A DNA stretch of 64,000 bases. Origin: Flavobacteriales bacterium (lineage in GTDB: Bacteria; Bacteroidota; Bacteroidia; Flavobacteriales_F; PHOS-HE28). Shown piece by piece: positions 35,584-44,122 of the stretch (the stretch's first letter is position 1; every line of letters starts with the position of its first letter). The translations under genes and the position numbers were made by a program. The stretch is from assembly GCA_019912395.1 (NCBI GenBank), contig JAIOIH010000028.1, positions 1-64,000 of the forward strand, written 5' to 3'. The notes under the pieces were generated by a model. That model did not search any database. It was given only the letters and a program-made list of their open reading frames with translations, and was not told the origin of the DNA.

Positions 35584-36420
35584 TCACTGGAAGCTCCACC
35601 CACCGCTACCGGCCGATTCACGGGGATTCAGGAGCATCACGGGGATCATGGCCTCGTTGGTGATGATCTCCTGTTCGTAGGGTACCCCCAGTACACCGAA
35701 GATGTTGCCGCGGGCCAGGTTCATGATGGTGATCAGGTCGGCATCCACATGCATGGCGTGGCTGATCACGGCATCCACGAACTTGCCGCTGTCCACATCG
35801 GCGATCGTGGCATCGAGCTCCACGTTCCGTTCGCCGAAATACTGCTTCGCAAAGCGGATGTTGTTCTCCAGTTGCTTGTGCAGGAACTCATCGGTTTCAC
35901 GAGGCGTGATCACATGCACCTTGCTATCGAAGTAGCGTGCCATGTCGGCCACCAGGGCCACCTTCTGGCGGGTTTCGCGCTGCAGGTCCATGGGGACCAC
36001 GATATTACTGTAGCCGTTCTCCCTGATGTTCCGCTCCTGCACCACGATGAACGGTACTTGGCCGTTGGTGATCACACGCAGGGCACGGCTTCCGGTGATG
36101 AACTGCATGCCGCGCATGCCATGGGTGCCCATGATGATGAGCTCCGCCCCGATCTCCGAGGCCGTGTTCCCGATCTCCTCATACACCGAACCCACACGGA
36201 CCTGGGGGCGCACCCTCACCCGGTCGCTCCAGCGTTTGGCTCGCTCCACTTCCATGCCCACCTTCAGGCGGGCCTCCTCCAGTTCCGCCTGCTTGGATAC
36301 GATGTGCAGGATGTTCACCTCCGCTCCCATCAATTCGGCCAACGCGGAAGCATGGTTCATGGCACAATCCGCCACTTTGGTGAAGTCCGTGGGTACCAAG
36401 ATCTGTTTCTTATCGCTCAT
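35584..36420 (-). CDS. Tandem-domain universal stress protein
   Basis: 278 aa with two UspA-type domains. The first (residues 1-150) begins KKQILVPTDFTKVADCAMNH and has the nucleotide-loop motif IIMGTHGMRGMQFITGSRAL. The second (about 155-278) is degenerate: SNIVVPMDLQRETRQ and ITIMNLARGNIFGVLGVPYE, lacking the classical GxxG-S/T ATP loop. Cytoplasmic stress protein of unknown ligand. Convergent with the phosphatase gene and divergent from ssb. Confidence 0.9.
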   Translation of the reverse strand: MSDKKQILVPTDFTKVADCAMNHASALAELMGAEVNILHIVSKQAELEEARLKVGMEVERAKRWSDRVRVRPQVRVGSVYEEIGNTASEIGAELIIMGTHGMRGMQFITGSRALRVITNGQVPFIVVQERNIRENGYSNIVVPMDLQRETRQKVALVADMARYFDSKVHVITPRETDEFLHKQLENNIRFAKQYFGERNVELDATIADVDSGKFVDAVISHAMHVDADLITIMNLARGNIFGVLGVPYEQEIITNEAMIPVMLLNPRESAGSGGWSFQ

Positions 36421-36512
36421 GATCTGCTTTGTACGTGTTGGTCGGTGGGCCGCTAAGATAGGCGTGATCCAACAGTTGGAACAATGCTCACATCACCCCT
36501 AATTCCGTCCAG

Positions 36513-36584
36513 CAAACGGTTATGAACGTCTATAAACGCATACTGGCCGAATGCTGTCGGAAGGCCGTGGAATGTTTGCAGCGG
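36513..36584 (+). promoter_or_regulatory. Phased 10-bp repeats and shared box upstream of ssb copy 1
   Basis: CAAACGGTTA (36513), TGAACGTCTA (36523) and TAAACGCATA (36533) are three AACG-containing 10-bp direct repeats. After a 27-nt gap comes GAATGTTTGCAGCGG (36570-36584), identical to a 15-mer before ssb copy 2. AATGTTTG within it resembles the -7 box, and no -33 TTTG is present, so an activator bound to the repeats is plausible. Confidence 0.55.
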
Positions 36585-36629
36585 CCAAACAAACCGATCG
36601 GAACTCAAAACCCAATAAACACCGAAACA

Positions 36630-36989
36630 ATGGAAAAGATGATCAAGAACCGCGTGCAACTGATGGGCAACCTGGGCAAGGACCCTGATGTACGGGAATT
36701 CGAAGGCGGAAAGAAAATGGCCCGCTTCAGCATGGCCACGAATGAGCGCTTCGCCTATGGAGATGGTCAGTTCAAGGAGGACACGCAATGGCATGGAATA
36801 GTGGCCTGGGGCCGCCTGGCCGAGCAGGTTTCCCAGCAATTGCAGAAAGGTGCCCGCATCTCGCTGGAGGGACGCTTGGTACACCGCTCCTACGAGACCA
36901 AGGAGGGTCAAAAGCGCTATATCACCGAGGTGGTCATGAACTCCTTCCAAGTGGTGGAGAACATGGCGGAGGTCGCCGAGGCAGCCTAA
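36630..36989 (+). CDS. ssb: Single-stranded DNA-binding protein, copy 1
   Basis: 119 aa from ATG 36630 (MEKMIKNRVQLMGNLGKDPD), or ATG 36639. One OB-fold: ARFSMATNERF, DTQWHGIVAWGRLAEQ and RLVHRSYETKEGQKRYITEV. There is no acidic C-terminal tip (it ends MAEVAEAA, not DDDIPF), so it lacks the partner-binding tail of housekeeping SSB. It is probably a secondary SSB, for example for plasmid, competence or repair functions. It is paired with a second ssb at 43751. Confidence 0.9.
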   Translation: MEKMIKNRVQLMGNLGKDPDVREFEGGKKMARFSMATNERFAYGDGQFKEDTQWHGIVAWGRLAEQVSQQLQKGARISLEGRLVHRSYETKEGQKRYITEVVMNSFQVVENMAEVAEAA

Positions 36990-37011
36990 TACCGGGCACA
37001 TACAAACAGAG

Positions 37012-37037
37012 AGGGCCGCAGCGGAAGTTGCGGCCCT
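37012..37037 (+). terminator. Hairpin terminator after ssb copy 1
   Basis: AGGGCCGCA (37012-37020), 8-nt loop, TGCGGCCCT (37029-37037), followed by TTCCGTTTCC. It may serve both ssb and the convergent PKD gene. Confidence 0.7.
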
Positions 37038-37059
37038 TTCCGTTTCCGGATGCGCGGGT

Positions 37060-40000
37060 TCAGTATTTCAGTACACGCACGGTCCGTACCGATGAGGCTC
37101 CCTGCAACCGCAGGATGTATGACCCCGGTGGGATCGCGCGATAATCGAGCTGAACCGTGCCGTTGATGGTGAGTTGCCGATCATCCGCAATGCGGCCGGC
37201 CATGTCCAGCAGCGTGATCCAGTAGGAGCCGTCCAGGTCGTCCCCGCTAAGTGTCAACTCGTTGGAGAATGGTTGAGGCCAAGTGCTTATCCCATCATTC
37301 CGGGCATCAGCTTCGGTCAAACCTGTGGGCAGGATCACCACCGTCTCGCAATGGTCGGCATAGCAAGTGTCCTGGGTTTGCGGGTCCCAGGCCCAGACCA
37401 GCAGGCACGCGGTGTAGGTCCCCGGTCCGGCGTAGGTATGGGACGGCATCGGGCCGTACCCGATAGTGCCATCACCGAAGTGCCATTCGTATTGCTGGTC
37501 CGTGGAGTTGCTCGAATGGAAGGTGGCGATCGGACCGTCGGTGGTCACTTGGAAGCCGGCGTTGAGGTTGTCGCAAGGGTTGCCGCCTGTGATCACCACC
37601 ATCTCGCAATGGTTGGCGAAGCAGCTGTCCTGGGCCACCGGATCCCACGCTGAGACCACCAAGCACACTTGGTACGTGCCAGCACCCGGGAACGTATGGT
37701 AGGGGTTGGGACCATAACCTTCTGTTCCATCGCCGAAATACCACTGGTAGGTCCAGCTGGGGTCGATCACGGCATTTGCGAAATTCACTCCGCCGGGACC
37801 GCCGGAGGCAGTGAACCCTGCATTGAGGCTGTCACAAGGGCTCGGTTCGCCGATCACGACGGTCATGCAGGTATCATCCACACACGTGGTCACGCCACCA
37901 CCGGGCAGCTCAAAGATGCTGATGACCTGCAAGCAGGCCTCGTAGACCCCGTCAGCAGCATAGGTGTGGAAGGGTTGCGCATCGTTGCTGGTGGAGCCAT
38001 CGCCGAAGGTCCAGACGAATGTGGTCTGGAAACCACTGCCCGTCGTGCTGTTGCTGAAGAGTGTTCCATTCGGCGTGGTGTGCCAAGTGAATCCTGCCTG
38101 CAACCCGGCGCACGGGTCCGTTGCTCCCACGGTGATCAGTGTGCAGGTGGTGTCGATGCAGTTCTGCCATTCGGCTATCAGGCACACGGTATAGGTTCCG
38201 GGCTGGTCGTAGTGGTGTTCCGCATGGAGGCCGTTGCTGCCGTGGCCATCACCGAAGTCCCAGAAGAACTGAGATCCGGGAAGCATGCCGGTGCAATTCT
38301 CAAAATAGTAACCGCCACCCGGCAGTTCAATGGGCTCGAAGCAGGCGCTCAACGAATCGCAGGGGTCGCCGCCAGCTATCACCACCGTCTCGCAATGGTC
38401 GGCATAGCAGGTGTCCTGTGTTTGCGGGTTCCATGCCCAGGCCAGCAGGCAGGCGGTGTATGTACCGGGCTCGGTGTAGGTATGGACCGGCATGGGGCCG
38501 TAGCCGCTGGTGCCGTCACCGAAGCTCCATTCGTAGTGTTGGGCCGTGGAATTGCTGGAATGGAAGGTGGCCACCGGTCCGGAGGTGGTCACCTGGAAGC
38601 CGGCGTTGAGGTTGTCGCAAGGGTTGCCGCCGGTAACGGTCACGGTTTGGCAGGTATGGGCCCAGCACGTGTCCTGTGCCTGTTCGTTCCACAGGTAGGC
38701 TGAAAAGCATGCCGTATATGTGCCGGGGTCATAGGTGTGCGTCACCGTTTGGTCGTAGCCGTGCTCACCGTCTCCGTAGTCCCAGAGGTAGCCGTCGGGG
38801 GCGAAGTTGGCCGTACCGCTGAACAACACGCTGTTGTTGCTGCCTTGGTTCCAGCTCATGGTGACCGCAAGGCCGTCGCAGAGGGAATCCCCGCTTACAA
38901 CTATGGTCGTGCAGGTGGTATCGATGCAGTTCAGCCATTCGGCGATCAGGCACACGGTATAGGTTCCGGGCTGGTCGTAGTGGTGTTCCGCATGGAGGCC
39001 GTTACTGCCGTGGCCATCACCGAAGTCCCAGAAGAACTGCGATCCGGGAAGCATGCCGGTGCAGTTCTCAAAATAGTAACCGCCGCCCGGCAGTTCAATG
39101 GGATCGAAGCAGGCGCTCAACGAATCGCAGGGCTCGCCGCCTTGAACAACAACGGTTTGGCAGGTCTGTGCCCAGCACGTGTCCTGCGTCTGTTCGTTCC
39201 AGAGGTAGGCTGAAAAGCATGCCGTATAGGTGCCGGGGTCATAGGTGTGCGTCACCGTTTGGTCGTAGCCGTGTTCACCGTCGCCGTAGTCCCAGAGGTA
39301 GCCGTCGGGGGCAAAGTTGGCCGTACCGCTGAACAACACGCTGTTGTTGCTGCCTTGGTTCCAGCTCATGGTGACCGCAAGGCCGTCGCAGAGGGAATCC
39401 CCGCTTACAACTATGGTCGTGCAGGTGGTATCGATGCAGTTCAGCCATTCGGCTATCAGGCACACGGTATAGCTTCCGGGCTGGTCGTAGTGGTGTTCCG
39501 CATGGAGGCCGTTGCTTCCGTGGCCATCACCGAAGTCCCAGAAGAACTGCGATCCGGGATGCAGGCCGGTGCAATTCTCAAAATAGTAACCGCCGCCCGG
39601 CAGTTCAATGGGATCGAAGCAGGCGCTCAACGAATCGCAGGGGTCGCCGCCGGTGATCACCACCGTCTCGCAGTGGTCGGCATAGCAGGTGTCCTGGGTT
39701 TGCGGGTCCCAGGCCCAGACCAGCAGGCACGCGGTGTAGGTCCCCGGCCCGGCGTAGGTATGGGTCGGCATCGGGCCGTACCCGCTGGTGCCATCACCGA
39801 AGTACCATTCGTAGTGCTGGTCCGTGGAGTTGCTCGAATGGAAGGTGGCGATCGGACCGTCGGTGGTCACTTGGAAGCCGGCGTTGAGGTTGTCGCAGGG
39901 ATCGCCGCCGTCCACCGTGACCACCTGGCAGAGTGTGCTTTTGCACGTGTCCGGCATGTTCGGTTCGCCCATCGTCAGACAAACCGTGTATGTTCCCGGA

Positions 40001-40224
40001 CCTGAAAAATGGTGTACGGGTGACGGTGAATCGCTGGTGATACCGTCACCGAAGTCCCAGAGGTAGTGCGGGGTGGTCCCGCCTTGGGAGCAATTCTGGA
40101 ATTCCACCGTACTGTTCAACCCGCTCCATTGGAAACAGGCCTGAAGACTGTCGCAGGGCGATTGCGCATGGGCGCCGATCTGCAAACCGGCAATGATGGC
40201 AAGGGTAGGGATCATCCGCATGGT
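37060..40224 (-). CDS. Secreted multi-PKD protein with T9SS sorting domain
   Basis: About 1054 aa from ATG 40224 or 40218 (MRMIPTLAIIAGLQIGAHAQ signal peptide); the upstream ATG 40242 adds six residues. Eleven PKD-type domains follow, each opening CD(S/N)L and carrying W(D/Y/H)FGDG or WDYGDG and TYTxCL. The C-terminal sorting domain begins WPQPFSNELTLSG and ends GSYILRLQGASSVRTVRVLK. It is a surface or extracellular repeat protein, possibly adhesive. A 510-bp block is tandemly duplicated (38640-39659). Last gene of the sigma-factor operon. Confidence 0.88.
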   Translation of the reverse strand, partial: TMRMIPTLAIIAGLQIGAHAQSPCDSLQACFQWSGLNSTVEFQNCSQGGTTPHYLWDFGDGITSDSPSPVHHFSGPGTYTVCLTMGEPNMPDTCKSTLCQVVTVDGGDPCDNLNAGFQVTTDGPIATFHSSNSTDQHYEWYFGDGTSGYGPMPTHTYAGPGTYTACLLVWAWDPQTQDTCYADHCETVVITGGDPCDSLSACFDPIELPGGGYYFENCTGLHPGSQFFWDFGDGHGSNGLHAEHHYDQPGSYTVCLIAEWLNCIDTTCTTIVVSGDSLCDGLAVTMSWNQGSNNSVLFSGTANFAPDGYLWDYGDGEHGYDQTVTHTYDPGTYTACFSAYLWNEQTQDTCWAQTCQTVVVQGGEPCDSLSACFDPIELPGGGYYFENCTGMLPGSQFFWDFGDGHGSNGLHAEHHYDQPGTYTVCLIAEWLNCIDTTCTTIVVSGDSLCDGLAVTMSWNQGSNNSVLFSGTANFAPDGYLWDYGDGEHGYDQTVTHTYDPGTYTACFSAYLWNEQAQDTCWAHTCQTVTVTGGNPCDNLNAGFQVTTSGPVATFHSSNSTAQHYEWSFGDGTSGYGPMPVHTYTEPGTYTACLLAWAWNPQTQDTCYADHCETVVIAGGDPCDSLSACFEPIELPGGGYYFENCTGMLPGSQFFWDFGDGHGSNGLHAEHHYDQPGTYTVCLIAEWQNCIDTTCTLITVGATDPCAGLQAGFTWHTTPNGTLFSNSTTGSGFQTTFVWTFGDGSTSNDAQPFHTYAADGVYEACLQVISIFELPGGGVTTCVDDTCMTVVIGEPSPCDSLNAGFTASGGPGGVNFANAVIDPSWTYQWYFGDGTEGYGPNPYHTFPGAGTYQVCLVVSAWDPVAQDSCFANHCEMVVITGGNPCDNLNAGFQVTTDGPIATFHSSNSTDQQYEWHFGDGTIGYGPMPSHTYAGPGTYTACLLVWAWDPQTQDTCYADHCETVVILPTGLTEADARNDGISTWPQPFSNELTLSGDDLDGSYWITLLDMAGRIADDRQLTINGTVQLDYRAIPPGSYILRLQGASSVRTVRVLKY
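38640..39659 (-). repeat. Tandem 510-bp duplication (two PKD domains per unit)
   Basis: Corresponding sequences lie 510 bp apart, for example GTCCTG(T/C)G at 38671 and 39181. They stay nearly identical through the CDGLAVTMSWNQGSNNSVLF and CDSLSACFDPIELPGGGYYF domains. In frame, 170 residues per unit. It indicates recent intragenic duplication. Confidence 0.85.
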
Positions 40225-40279
40225 CATGGTGCTTATGGGCAATATGACGCACGCGCCGCCTTGCCCGTCGCCTCCCGGT

Positions 40280-41440
40280 TCACTCGAACGCGGAAGTGCT
40301 CTTCACAACACGCAGCACCTGCCCACCGTGCGGGTCGTACAGGTGGAACAGGTACGACCCCGCATCCAGCATACTGCCCTGCACCACGAGCGGACCGTTG
40401 GCGGGCGTTCGGCCCTGTACATGGATGCGCCCCAACACGTCCATCAGCTCCCAATGGATCCCTGGACCTGCCCCTTCAATGGTGAGCGCCCCAGTGAAGG
40501 GAACCGGAAAGGCATGCAGTGACCCCGTGCCGCCATGCGTCCCGATACCCGTGGCCACATAGGTATACAAATACTCACAGGCCGATCCGGAGCAGGTGTC
40601 CGGTGTCAAAGGCCCCCACAGGTCCACTTCGCCGCATACTTCGAAAGAACCTTCCTCCGTGTACGTATGTATCAGCGGACTTCCGCTGGCCGTAGTGCCA
40701 TCGCCGAAATCCCAGGTGATCGATGAGTTCATGCCCGAGGTGATGCTTTGATCGAACACGGCAATGGTCTTCTCATATTGGATCACGCCGATGGCCGGTT
40801 GCAGGAGCGTGCCGCACGGAACATTGGACGGACCCAGGTAGATCCAATTACAAGCGGTGGCACTGCAGGTGGCGGTGCTCACCGTGAGGCATGCCTCGTA
40901 CGGTCCGGTGCCGGCATAAGTGTGCTCGGGCGATATTTCCGTGGAGGTGGAGCCATCGCCGAAGTCCCATGCATGAGCTGCGAAAGGAAGCGAGGCCGAC
41001 GATTGATCGTTGAACTGGATCACAGCACCCTGCACACTGATGGTGAACGCCGCTACCACGTCCGCGCAGGCCGAGTCCACCGGAATGGACACCAGCTCGC
41101 AATGGATGGACACGCACGCACCTGTCTGGTCGTCCTGCACGGTAGTGCGCAGGCAAACCAGGTAATCATCCATCCCGGGAAAGGTGACCTGCGGCTGGGG
41201 GGCGAAACTGAAATCCATGAACTCCTCGCCGAGGAAACCCCACTCCGTGCCTTGGAAGGAGGCCCCCCCGCTCGGCGTGATCGGGGAGAAGGAGTAGTTG
41301 TATGCACCATAGTCCGTATGGGTGAAGCCCACCTCGTTCAGGCTGTCGCAGGGAGCTTGCGCGATCGCTGCGGGCCAACAGGTCGTGGCCAGCATCAAGC
41401 AGCAAAGCGATCGCACGGTTCGGGAAAGGGGGAAGTTCAT
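40280..41440 (-). CDS. Secreted PKD-domain protein with T9SS sorting domain
   Basis: 386 aa. Signal peptide (LCCLMLATTCWPAAIAQA), one divergent and two clear PKD domains (AAHAWDFGDGSTSTEI, SSITWDFGDGTTASGS), and a type A sorting domain (HAFPVPFTGALTIEG... GSYLFHLYDPHGGQVLRVVK). Its ATG overlaps the stop of the upstream one-TM/barrel protein by 4 bp (TGA 41437-41439), and it is followed by the larger PKD gene. It is probably a T9SS cargo controlled by the linked ECF sigma factor. Confidence 0.88.
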   Translation of the reverse strand: MNFPLSRTVRSLCCLMLATTCWPAAIAQAPCDSLNEVGFTHTDYGAYNYSFSPITPSGGASFQGTEWGFLGEEFMDFSFAPQPQVTFPGMDDYLVCLRTTVQDDQTGACVSIHCELVSIPVDSACADVVAAFTISVQGAVIQFNDQSSASLPFAAHAWDFGDGSTSTEISPEHTYAGTGPYEACLTVSTATCSATACNWIYLGPSNVPCGTLLQPAIGVIQYEKTIAVFDQSITSGMNSSITWDFGDGTTASGSPLIHTYTEEGSFEVCGEVDLWGPLTPDTCSGSACEYLYTYVATGIGTHGGTGSLHAFPVPFTGALTIEGAGPGIHWELMDVLGRIHVQGRTPANGPLVVQGSMLDAGSYLFHLYDPHGGQVLRVVKSTSAFE

Positions 41441-42951
41441 CGGCTGGGGCGAAGGGTGTAGGCGAGGCGGAAGCGGATGCCAAGCCTTTCCGGCACGGCA
41501 TACGGCGTTCCGTCGGTGGGTGACAAGGAAAACAGCCCGGTGGCGTATCCGGGCGAAGCCCAGAGGGCCAAGCGCTCATTGATGGCGTAGCCCACGTCCG
41601 CGGCCAGTCCTCCGCTCAAAAGCATGGCTGTGCGCTTTTCCGTGGTGGATACGTCCACACTGCGCGTTCCGCCCTGCTCGTTCATCAAGGTGACGCCGGA
41701 GCGCATGGTGTTGAACTCCAGCGCCAAGCCACCGCGCACGCCGAAATGCCAACGCCGCCAAGCGGTATGCCAGCTGCCCTCCAAGGGCACGCGGATCGAG
41801 GTGTAGTGGTTCACGGCGGCCACGGTCCGGCGCACCTCGGTATAGGTGGTCAGCGTATCCACGTAGCTGTCCACCACTTGGGTGTTGAAGGTGATCACAT
41901 GGGTGACCAGGGAATCCCGCATGGAACGGAACTGGTCCAAGTGATTGAAATCGTATCGGGCCGCGCTGTACTCGATTCCCGTGGCCAAACCCCATCCGCC
42001 CCGGTAGGCCACCCCGGCAAGTACACCGAAGTTCAAGGTATGGTGCGGGGTTTCCGTACCCTGCAGCGCGTTCGCCAATTGGGCATCTCCCCCGTGCCAC
42101 GTGCGCGTTTCCCGGAACTGGCCCGCCGTGGCCGCCACCCACCAGGCAGGGCGAGGACCCCGGAATTCCATGGGACTCGCGACCCGTGGATCAGCCGCGA
42201 GCAGCTCGCGCTTCAGAATGGAGGAACGGAGCTGCAGCATGCCGGGCCGGGCCCACGCCAGGCCACCTGCGGCATGGCGCACCTCTCGCCCGGATGTCGC
42301 AGCCTCATCGGCCAAGGCCAGCGGTTGTTCCGTCGGGACGATCATCTCAATTGAAGCGGAGAGCTGTTGTTCGGGATCGTCCGGAACAACGTGCCCGGCT
42401 TGTGCAACCCGCACCGGAGTGGCCGGGACGGATGCGGCATGTGCGCGGTACGAGCGACCGTCCGTGCGGTTTTCGCGGGATGCGGACGAATGCGTGGATC
42501 CGTTGGCAACCGGTTCAGCTTCCATGACGGGCGCCCGGGCAGTCTGTTCCACTGGGCCAGAAGCTGAGGATCGCGCTTCGTCCATGGCTTCTGGATGGAG
42601 CGTTCGTGTGCGTTCAGCATCCACCTCTCCAACGGATGCATCCTCCATTCCGAGGGTTGGTGCCGGTTGCAATGCACTTGGGGCCATGGCAACCGGTTGG
42701 GCGATCGGCTCGGGCTGTGGTGGCCCGGCCATCCGCGCATCACCGCCGCCGTTGAGACCCGTGATGGTGGCGGTGCCGCCCAGCAGGAGCGCCAAGGCCA
42801 GCCAGCCCCAGCGGCGGCGAAGCCGCAGCAGGGTGAGGTGCGCCCAGTTGCGTTCCCGCACAATGCCTTCCCAGCCCCCGGCAGGCGGAGCGGCTTCGGC
42901 ATCCCGCAGGGCGCGGGCGAAAAGCTCATCGATCGGATGTTGTTCCCTCAT
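41437..42951 (-). CDS. One-TM protein with anti-sigma-like N-terminus and barrel-like C-terminus
   Basis: 504 aa. The N-terminal ~45 residues (HPIDELFARALRDAEAAPPA, GGWEGI) follow the DxLFRxxL...PP..xW pattern of proteins next to ECF sigma genes in Bacteroidota. A single TM follows (about 47-66; WGWLALALLLGGTATI), then a long Pro/Ala/Glu-rich linker (about 70-250). The C-terminal ~240 residues (AATAGQFRETRTWHG, GVAYRGGWGLATGIEYSAAR, GIRFRLAYTLRPSR) look like alternating strands of an outer-membrane barrel domain. Overlaps the sigma gene by 26 bp. Probably a sigma regulator; how a barrel fits an inner-membrane anchor is unclear. Confidence 0.65.
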   Translation of the reverse strand: MREQHPIDELFARALRDAEAAPPAGGWEGIVRERNWAHLTLLRLRRRWGWLALALLLGGTATITGLNGGGDARMAGPPQPEPIAQPVAMAPSALQPAPTLGMEDASVGEVDAERTRTLHPEAMDEARSSASGPVEQTARAPVMEAEPVANGSTHSSASRENRTDGRSYRAHAASVPATPVRVAQAGHVVPDDPEQQLSASIEMIVPTEQPLALADEAATSGREVRHAAGGLAWARPGMLQLRSSILKRELLAADPRVASPMEFRGPRPAWWVAATAGQFRETRTWHGGDAQLANALQGTETPHHTLNFGVLAGVAYRGGWGLATGIEYSAARYDFNHLDQFRSMRDSLVTHVITFNTQVVDSYVDTLTTYTEVRRTVAAVNHYTSIRVPLEGSWHTAWRRWHFGVRGGLALEFNTMRSGVTLMNEQGGTRSVDVSTTEKRTAMLLSGGLAADVGYAINERLALWASPGYATGLFSLSPTDGTPYAVPERLGIRFRLAYTLRPSR

Positions 42952-43618
42952 GGTATTCCATTGCTTTCAGTTCCTCCAAGCGGCGCTGCAGGGCTTGCCG
43001 CGCCTTGGCCAATTGGCTGCGGGAAGTGCTCTCGCCACATCCCAGCAGCTCCGCGATCTCCCCATGGTCGTATCCCTCGATGGCATACAGGTTGAACACC
43101 ATGCGGTAGCCGTTCGGGAGCTGCTGCACCAGCACCAGCAGTTCCTCCTGCCCCAGGTTCCCCAAGGCAACGGGCGCCACGGAGCGTTCCTGCACATGGT
43201 CCGTCCCCAGCACCTCGTCCCGCACGGACTTCTTCCGCAGGTGATTGATGCAGGTATGTACCATGATCCGTCGTATCCATCCTTCCAACGAGCCTTCCAT
43301 GCGGAAGCCGTGCAGTTTGTCGAACACCCGGATGAAGCCCTCCTGCAACAAGTCCTCCGCCTCCGGCCGATGCCGGGCATACCGCAGGCACACAGCGAAC
43401 ATGCGCCGTGCAAAACGAGCGTACAGGGCCTCCTGCGCGCTGCGTTCCTCCCGCTGGCATCGGCGTGCCAGCTCGTATTCGCTGAGCTCTCGCACCGGGT
43501 GGGTCAAGGTGTTTTCCAAGGGGAAGACACGGAACAGGCGGTCCGCGCTGCCTGGGGTGAATGGTTTCCTGAAAGATAAGCGGGATACGGAACAAGTGGG
43601 AGGCCATCCGTTGCGCAA
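42926..43618 (-). CDS. ECF-type RNA polymerase sigma factor
   Basis: Up to 230 aa. Region 2: ARRMFAVCLRYARHRPEAED, LLQEGFIRVFDKLHGFR, GWIRRIMVHTCINHLRK. Region 4: QLPNGYRMVFNLYAIEGYDH with GEIAELLGCGESTSRSQLAK. ATG 43618 gives an odd N-terminus that overlaps the ssb repeat array; a TTG start near the PLENTLTHPVREL segment (about 40 residues in) is equally likely. First gene of an operon with the one-TM hybrid protein and two PKD-T9SS proteins, and divergent from ssb copy 2. Confidence 0.88.
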   Translation of the reverse strand: MRNGWPPTCSVSRLSFRKPFTPGSADRLFRVFPLENTLTHPVRELSEYELARRCQREERSAQEALYARFARRMFAVCLRYARHRPEAEDLLQEGFIRVFDKLHGFRMEGSLEGWIRRIMVHTCINHLRKKSVRDEVLGTDHVQERSVAPVALGNLGQEELLVLVQQLPNGYRMVFNLYAIEGYDHGEIAELLGCGESTSRSQLAKARQALQRRLEELKAMEYHEGTTSDR

Positions 43619-43698
43619 ACGGTTGCAAACAGCTATGAACGATTACAAACGCAAGATCAACCGAATAAGCAAAAGGCACCAGTGAATGTTTGCAGCGG
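43616..43698 (+). promoter_or_regulatory. Phased 10-bp repeats and shared box upstream of ssb copy 2
   Basis: CAAACGGTTG (43616), CAAACAGCTA (43626), TGAACGATTA (43636) and CAAACGCAAG (43646) are four consecutive 10-bp repeats. A 28-nt gap precedes GAATGTTTGCAGCGG (43684-43698). The layout matches that of ssb copy 1. The array also overlaps the possible start of the divergent sigma gene, so one protein could control both. Confidence 0.58.
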
Positions 43699-43750
43699 AG
43701 TTCAACATCAACCACTCCATCAAACTGAAAACCCTTAACCCCCAAACACC

Positions 43751-44122
43751 ATGAAAACGCTGAACAACACCGTCCGCCTGATCGGAAACCTGGGCTTTGA
43801 CCCGGAAGTGCGCGAGATCGCCAAGGGGCGAAAAGTGGCCCGCATCAGTGTGGCCACCAACGAGAGCTACACGAATGCCGCCGGTGAAAAGGTCACCGAC
43901 ACCCAGTGGCACACCGTGGTGGCCTGGGGCCGCATCGCCGACCAAGTGGAAATGATGCTGAGCAAGGGCTCACCCGTGATGGTGGAAGGTCGCCTCGTAC
44001 ACCGCAGCTACGCCGGCAAGGACGGCGTGAAGCGCCACATCACCGAGGTGGTGCTGAGCGATTTCAAGGTGATCGCCTTCAACAAGCGCGACGAGCAGGC
44101 CGAGGCCCGAACGGCCGCCTGA
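43751..44122 (+). CDS. ssb: Single-stranded DNA-binding protein, copy 2
   Basis: 123 aa with the OB-fold motifs LNNTVRLIGNLGFDPEVRE, ARISVATNES, DTQWHTVVAWGRIADQ and RLVHRSYAGKDGVKRHITEV. Clearly paralogous to copy 1. The C-terminus (DEQAEARTAA) again lacks the acidic DDDIPF-type tip. Regulated by the same phased repeats as copy 1, and followed by a strong terminator. Confidence 0.9.
   Translation: MKTLNNTVRLIGNLGFDPEVREIAKGRKVARISVATNESYTNAAGEKVTDTQWHTVVAWGRIADQVEMMLSKGSPVMVEGRLVHRSYAGKDGVKRHITEVVLSDFKVIAFNKRDEQAEARTAA

Follow-up and report, generated by a model that had tools for sequence, protein, structure and literature searches.

Short ssb genes in many families of the class Bacteroidia, whose products as a rule lack an acidic C-terminal tip, are preceded by a row of 10-bp direct repeats, the last unit of which takes the -33 position of the promoter. 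From sequence comparison it is probable that a small zinc protein binds these repeats cooperatively and head-to-tail, recruits RNA polymerase and activates the short ssb genes. A promoter architecture that is exact to the base pair across the class, together with one named candidate regulator, amounts to a testable regulatory circuit, and few such circuits are known in the phylum.

Arrays and short ssb genes in the window

The window, i.e. the whole stretch of 64,000 nucleotides analysed here, contains two short ssb genes on the forward strand (36630..36989 and 43751..44122). Both exceed the cut-off of the SSB profile (PF00436/TIGR00621) with 101-127 bits, and their products end in ...EVAEAA and ...ARTAA, i.e. 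without the acidic tip, as an earlier sequence-only reading had stated. The source genome has four ssb genes, namely three short paralogues with an array and a canonical copy on contig C66, which ends in DDDDLPF and for which the whole-genome search found no array. Among 135 short ssb relatives, an acidic C-terminal tip occurs in 5.

Array 1 (36513..36542, forward strand) consists of three 10-bp units with CG at 36517, 36527 and 36537 (AAACG at 36514, GAACG at 36524, AAACG at 36534), and array 2 (43616..43655, forward strand) of four units with CG or CA at 43620, 43630, 43640 and 43650. The period is exactly 10 in both, so that the coordinates and the phase of the three and four units described earlier were verified, as was the 15-mer GAATGTTTGCAGCGG common to both copies (36570..36584 and 43684..43698, forward strand). 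This 15-mer has no third exact copy within the window, and its widely conserved part is TTTGCNNCG only. The element CCGTC lies upstream of array 1 (36505..36509, forward strand), and CCGT also stands 5' of most arrays in the genus. The array pattern AACRNNTAYRAACGNNTAYRAACG, with up to three mismatches, matched three times in the window as opposed to 0.02 matches expected from shuffles. In the 4.13-Mb genome it has three perfect matches, the two window copies and C11:219834, each about 135-140 bp 5' of a short ssb paralogue (140 bp for C11:219834). A 95-position sequence profile of array and promoter, R1, built from 25 promoters, matched copy 1 at 36506-36585 (E 7e-14) and copy 2 at 43607-43699 (E 4.5e-18); with the threshold raised to E=10, it returned from the whole genome the three short ssb promoters and one match with E=0.165.

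Between the two ssb genes lie, among others, genes for an ECF sigma factor and for PKD/T9SS-type proteins, so the sigma-factor/T9SS operon that the sequence-only reading saw bracketed by them is there, but the arrangement is a feature of the genus and is not needed by the array-ssb unit. In many genomes of the genus the order is usp - ssb - PKD proteins - outer-membrane protein - ECF sigma - ssb (window 35584-44122, loci L039-L076), and in several others the two ssb genes are adjacent and have a single array in common. Because the array-ssb unit occurs throughout the class without this block, the block is probably unrelated to the array. The 1060-aa PKD-repeat protein encoded at 37060-40242 contains long near-identical internal DNA repeats, e.g. 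at about 38130-38360, 38910-39140 and 39420-39640.

Conservation of the array in the genus and the class

One layout, (CCGT) - AAACG-N5-AAACG-NNTAT-GAACG-NNTAC-AAAYG - RCCGRAT - TTTGCNNCG, is common to about 55 short-ssb promoters within the genus. In nearly all of them 27 bp separate the CG of CCGRAT from TTTG, and in one 28 bp. The repeats are direct and in tandem, with a variable number of three to six phased units. By eye, this layout was also recognised 5' of short ssb genes in a dozen other families. In the 135 short ssb genes outside the genus, the CG-TTTG spacing is 27 bp in 97, and any other spacing between 20 and 34 bp is found in 0-11 genes. TTTG served as the anchor in selecting these 97 genes, yet one spacing is strongly preferred. 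The set was defined by CG and TTTG at 27 bp and at least two of three flanking features, and the positions upstream were not used in the selection. At these upstream positions, CG occurs at 11, 21, 31, 41 and 51 bp from the anchor CG in 30, 87, 54, 76 and 50 of the 97 genes, respectively, and almost nowhere else. Array 2 of the window lies one base further off (12, 22, 32 and 42 bp), like a subset that peaks at 32 and 42. The consensus reads AAACGNTTAY AAACGNNTAT AANCGAAWRT AARYGNTTAN NAACCGAAT N20 CAYACC TTTGCAYCGTCAA, with CGNNTAYAAA as the 10-bp unit. The region from CCGAAT to the -7 box is little conserved, and the pattern is therefore a footprint and not general similarity. Since the scan of relatives found the array 5' of short ssb genes across the genus and in many families of the class, the objection that the repeat is not conserved upstream of ssb fails decisively.

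Promoter elements and predicted 5' end

The housekeeping sigma-A promoter of Bacteroidetes has TTG at -33 and TAnnTTTG at -7. A pattern scan of the forward strand for the standard TTG-N19-TAnnTTTG gave no match at either window promoter. The -33 position is occupied in both by CCGAAT instead of TTG, on the forward strand at 36547..36552 in copy 1, where its CG lies 11 bp past the last CG of the array, and at 43661..43666 in copy 2, where it lies 12 bp past it; the distance to TTTG is 27 bp in each. The array adjoins the promoter, and its last unit, CCGRAT, takes the -33 position. TTTG, the predicted -7 element, is present in both copies within the 15-mer (36575-36578 and 43689-43692). Compared with the sigma-A consensus, CCGRAT stands in the place of TTG and TTTG in that of the -7 element. 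The earlier description of a missing -33 element is correct in that neither copy has the standard TTG, but the position holds a conserved unit. Similarly, the TTTG of the "-7-like" box proved constant, whereas its match to TAnnTTTG is imperfect (AATGTTTG).

Directly 3' of TTTGCNNCG, an RNA hairpin is predicted (GGAGT...ACTCC, 43697..43718 on the forward strand in copy 2), which would begin the predicted transcript and is a class-wide feature at this place. The fold energy of the 40 nt past TTTG gave a mean z of -1.13 for the 97 genes compared with dinucleotide shuffles (-1.31 for the genus set), while windows shifted by at least 10 nt gave a mean z of about 0. The stems vary in sequence among relatives and the loops are A/C-rich; the evidence for the hairpin is this fold-energy test, as the covariation alignment is too loose with its variable loops. 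As an independent signal localised at the predicted 5' end, the hairpin supports the assigned transcription start. A leader peptide (ATGAACGTCTATAAACGC / ATGAACGATTACAAACGC, read as MNVYKR / MNDYKR) was considered and rejected, because the array has a period of 10 and not of 3, its repeat number is variable and the sequence is located 5' of the predicted start.

A zinc protein as the candidate regulator

The most likely regulator, judged from gene arrangement and distribution, is a treble-clef zinc protein of about 120 aa, encoded in the source genome by a single-copy gene away from ssb (G000:C62:163153-163545). In seven of the first families examined, its gene is divergent from short ssb and the array is common to both; in these divergent loci the array starts a few tens of bases from the start of the zinc gene. 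A short ssb gene is divergent within 900 bp at 33 of 70 zinc-protein loci, these being the loci with enough upstream DNA out of 80 in named public genomes. The protein is characterised by the motif C-x2-C...GRxDKKFC-x3-CR, a basic helix (RNVNNxLRKNRRIL) and a conserved C-terminal part. It is annotated as hypothetical or DUF2116-like, and has a weak relationship to the treble-clef family DUF2116: Pfam PF09889 weakly matches 41 of 50 members, the first member with 19.4 bits against a cut-off of 26.8. No Pfam MerR/HTH domain was matched in the 50 members. The AlphaFold2 model, calculated with 50 homologues, has a pLDDT of 87 (92.7 for the C-terminal domain alone) and consists of a treble clef at about 10-33, a helix at 30-65 and then a strand, a helix and four strands. 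Fold searches against the PDB with the models of the whole protein and of the C-terminal domain gave no confident match, to a DNA-binding protein or to any other. Domains 2-3 of RctB, which bind repeated sites, and CodY were matched at Z 3-5, within noise; the best match, RctB domains 2-3 with a VIA-align Z of 5.1, is below the trustworthy level. In the open-access literature, we found no paper on the repeat motif or on DUF2116.

Among 149 genomes of the class, the zinc protein is present in 81 of 82 array-positive and 15 of 67 array-negative genomes (81 with both, 1 with the array only, 15 with the protein only, 52 with neither). The corresponding Fisher p=3e-25, and p=5e-4 with one genome per family (13/1/2/8), overstate the association and are indicative only, because the genomes are related and not independent. 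The single array-positive genome in which no zinc protein was detected (G122) is a fragmented assembly, and at least two protein-only genomes (G038 and G052) show the 27-bp layout by eye, below the profile threshold. In 118 genomes of the phylum, the protein is confined to the class Bacteroidia, apart from one weak partial match. Phage copies were searched for and none was found, and a PADLOC search for a link to anti-phage defence gave nothing above noise.

Direct repeats spaced near one helical turn are also bound by OmpR/PhoB and by lambda CII. BldC is likewise known to act on such repeats, with AATTNNNNC units and 9-bp sites (PMC5859096). The array might therefore be bound by another widespread direct-repeat regulator of the OmpR/PhoB, LytTR or BldC/MerR-like type, with the zinc protein as a mere partner of the short SSB in the divergent region, an explanation that we consider unlikely. 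A common divergent intergenic region would produce co-occurrence without binding, and both co-occurrence and adjacency could equally follow from a single pathway that includes the two genes and is controlled by another factor. However, the array occurs in only 1 of the 53 genomes without the zinc protein. In the genus of the window, moreover, the zinc gene lies elsewhere and has no array, its score being at shuffle level, whereas the short ssb genes have one; the zinc gene is nevertheless single-copy and kept in all members searched. The zinc protein is thus not merely a co-regulated target.

The opposite case is found on plasmids, also at odds with another regulator: five plasmid zinc-protein genes (Rufibacter, Pontibacter, Adhaeribacter and two of Persicobacter) have the array directly 5' of their own start with no ssb nearby. 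A significant array without ssb was found upstream of the zinc gene in 5 of 5 plasmid loci and in 4 of 13 further loci, chiefly chromosomal paralogues. These 9 of 18 loci have p<=0.02 against shuffles, and none of 372 control windows of the same loci attains their score. In two of the loci (L285 and L286; NZ_CP012644.1 and NZ_CP111080.1), a paralogue of the zinc protein and a tyrosine recombinase are encoded divergently, and a 10-bp array separates the two genes. Taken together, the genus in which the zinc gene lacks the array and the plasmids on which it bears one indicate that the array follows the protein and not ssb alone. The array of the Pontibacter plasmid has the variant units CGCGTATA/CGTGTATA.

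Proposed mechanism and its alternatives

According to the proposed mechanism, the short ssb promoter would consist of TTTG at -7 and CCGRAT in place of TTG at -33, the latter as the last of a row of 10-bp units. The zinc protein would occupy the CGNNTAYAAA units head-to-tail on one helix face as a cooperative oligomer and recruit RNA polymerase by a class II-like activation; recruitment is proposed because the regulator would abut or overlap -33. The rigid register between units and -33, the variable number of units and the missing TTG argue for a head-to-tail polymerising protein that contacts RNA polymerase. Where the zinc gene is divergent, the same array would also cover the zinc-gene promoter, and its proximity to the zinc-gene start suggests that binding should also repress this gene. 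We infer that the zinc protein is the binder, that it oligomerises, that it activates ssb and represses its own gene, and that it takes part in ssDNA uptake or recombination. The idea put forward by the sequence-only reading, a cooperative activator on a phased array in front of a promoter that lacks the standard -33, has strong support; activation rather than repression is what we infer.

The array could instead be the operator of a repressor that keeps the short ssb genes off until a signal arrives, for example DNA damage or ssDNA, an explanation to which we assign a low probability. Several plasmid copies have an array that touches the zinc-gene start codon, an arrangement more in keeping with repression than with activation, and genes for short SSBs are natural targets of a stress response. 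LexA-like SOS regulators of the same phylum include ssb in the regulon of some species (PMC8565304). However, the whole of the ssb array is 5' of TTTG, the 27-bp spacing is rigid and there is no standard -33, which is how an activated promoter is laid out. A LexA/SOS operator at these promoters was also rejected: the LexA-like regulators are S24 peptidase repressors with palindromic sites, CTAA-N5-TTAG or GGA-N5-TCC, which are not the present motif. The former is absent near both copies, and the latter lies beside copy 2 (43599-43609) but not beside copy 1, being one of 40 matches in the window.

More doubtful still is the idea that CCGRAT and TTTGC at a fixed distance form the promoter of an alternative sigma factor, with the repeats only assisting. 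CCGRAT and TTTGCNNCG are indeed kept at a fixed distance, and an ECF sigma gene lies between the two ssb genes of the window. Nevertheless, CCGRAT, as the last unit of the array, is nearly in register with it (11 bp), families and loci that lack that ECF sigma gene also have the array-ssb unit, and TTTG matches the normal Bacteroidetes -7. That the arrays arose by chance, or are left over from a recent duplication of ssb and its leader, has a negligible probability: the three copies in the source genome are paralogues, but the identical phase and spacing at 97 ssb genes of many families with unconserved flanks and spacer refute it.

Comparison with known systems

The closest worked-out precedent for the proposed head-to-tail binding is BldC, a small MerR-like protein of Streptomyces without a separate dimerisation or effector domain, which binds cooperatively and head-to-tail to a variable number of direct repeats (PMC5859096). 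Tandem direct repeats of variable number are found here as well, but the BldC units are about 9 bp, whereas CGNNTAYAAA recurs at 10 bp, rigidly in register with -33, and the candidate is a treble-clef protein without a recognised MerR/HTH domain. If the proposal is correct, cooperative regulators of direct repeats would comprise, next to BldC, a second family that is apparently unrelated to it. RdfS-type wHTH recombination directionality factors are small oligomerising DNA-binding proteins tied to tyrosine recombinases (PMC11963761). The link to a tyrosine recombinase is shared by two plasmid copies of the zinc protein, but no sequence relationship was detected and the main target here is ssb. 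A specially regulated alternative SSB paralogue next to the canonical SSB is also known from SsbB in the competence regulons of Bacillus and Streptococcus (PMC3128108), although with another promoter and regulator, and the link to competence here is comM in one family only.

Targets of the array and possible role

Among 62 R1 matches outside the genus whose context was read, 53 lie directly 5' of a short ssb gene and two more were assigned to one (55 of 62 in total), one with a gene inserted and one with a longer reading frame. The few non-ssb targets look like DNA metabolism. In one genome (G049), a full array with the exact 27-bp promoter lies directly 5' of comM (YifB) (L140, G049:C12:63111-63202). 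In G106 the targets include both an IS200-type (Y1) transposase and a 3'-5' exonuclease of the PolB type; two genomes belonging to a single family have the array before a UvrD-like helicase, and G123 has it before a PD-(D/E)XK protein. Short SSB without an acidic tip, ComM and an ssDNA transposase as targets suggest a role in DNA uptake or recombination, which is the least certain part of the proposal; any tie of the zinc protein to competence would be indirect. In Riemerella, mutants of YifB/ComM, ComF and RecA have lost or reduced transformation (PMC8459023). It is conceivable, albeit tentative, that the zinc protein represents a new class-wide family of zinc transcription factors, forming a head-to-tail filament on CGNNTAYAAA repeats into -33, and acts as master regulator of a Bacteroidia programme of ssDNA uptake and recombination (short SSB, ComM, ssDNA transposase, nuclease and helicase) that plasmids, too, would carry, next to tyrosine recombinases. 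Should ssDNA or DNA uptake be what the regulator responds to, it would give access to how natural transformation and recombination are controlled in Bacteroidia.

Arrays were also observed within dispersed intergenic repeats in three genomes, G049 (44 pattern matches; L136-L139), G170 (L121-L123) and G143 (L128), as if spread by a mobile element.
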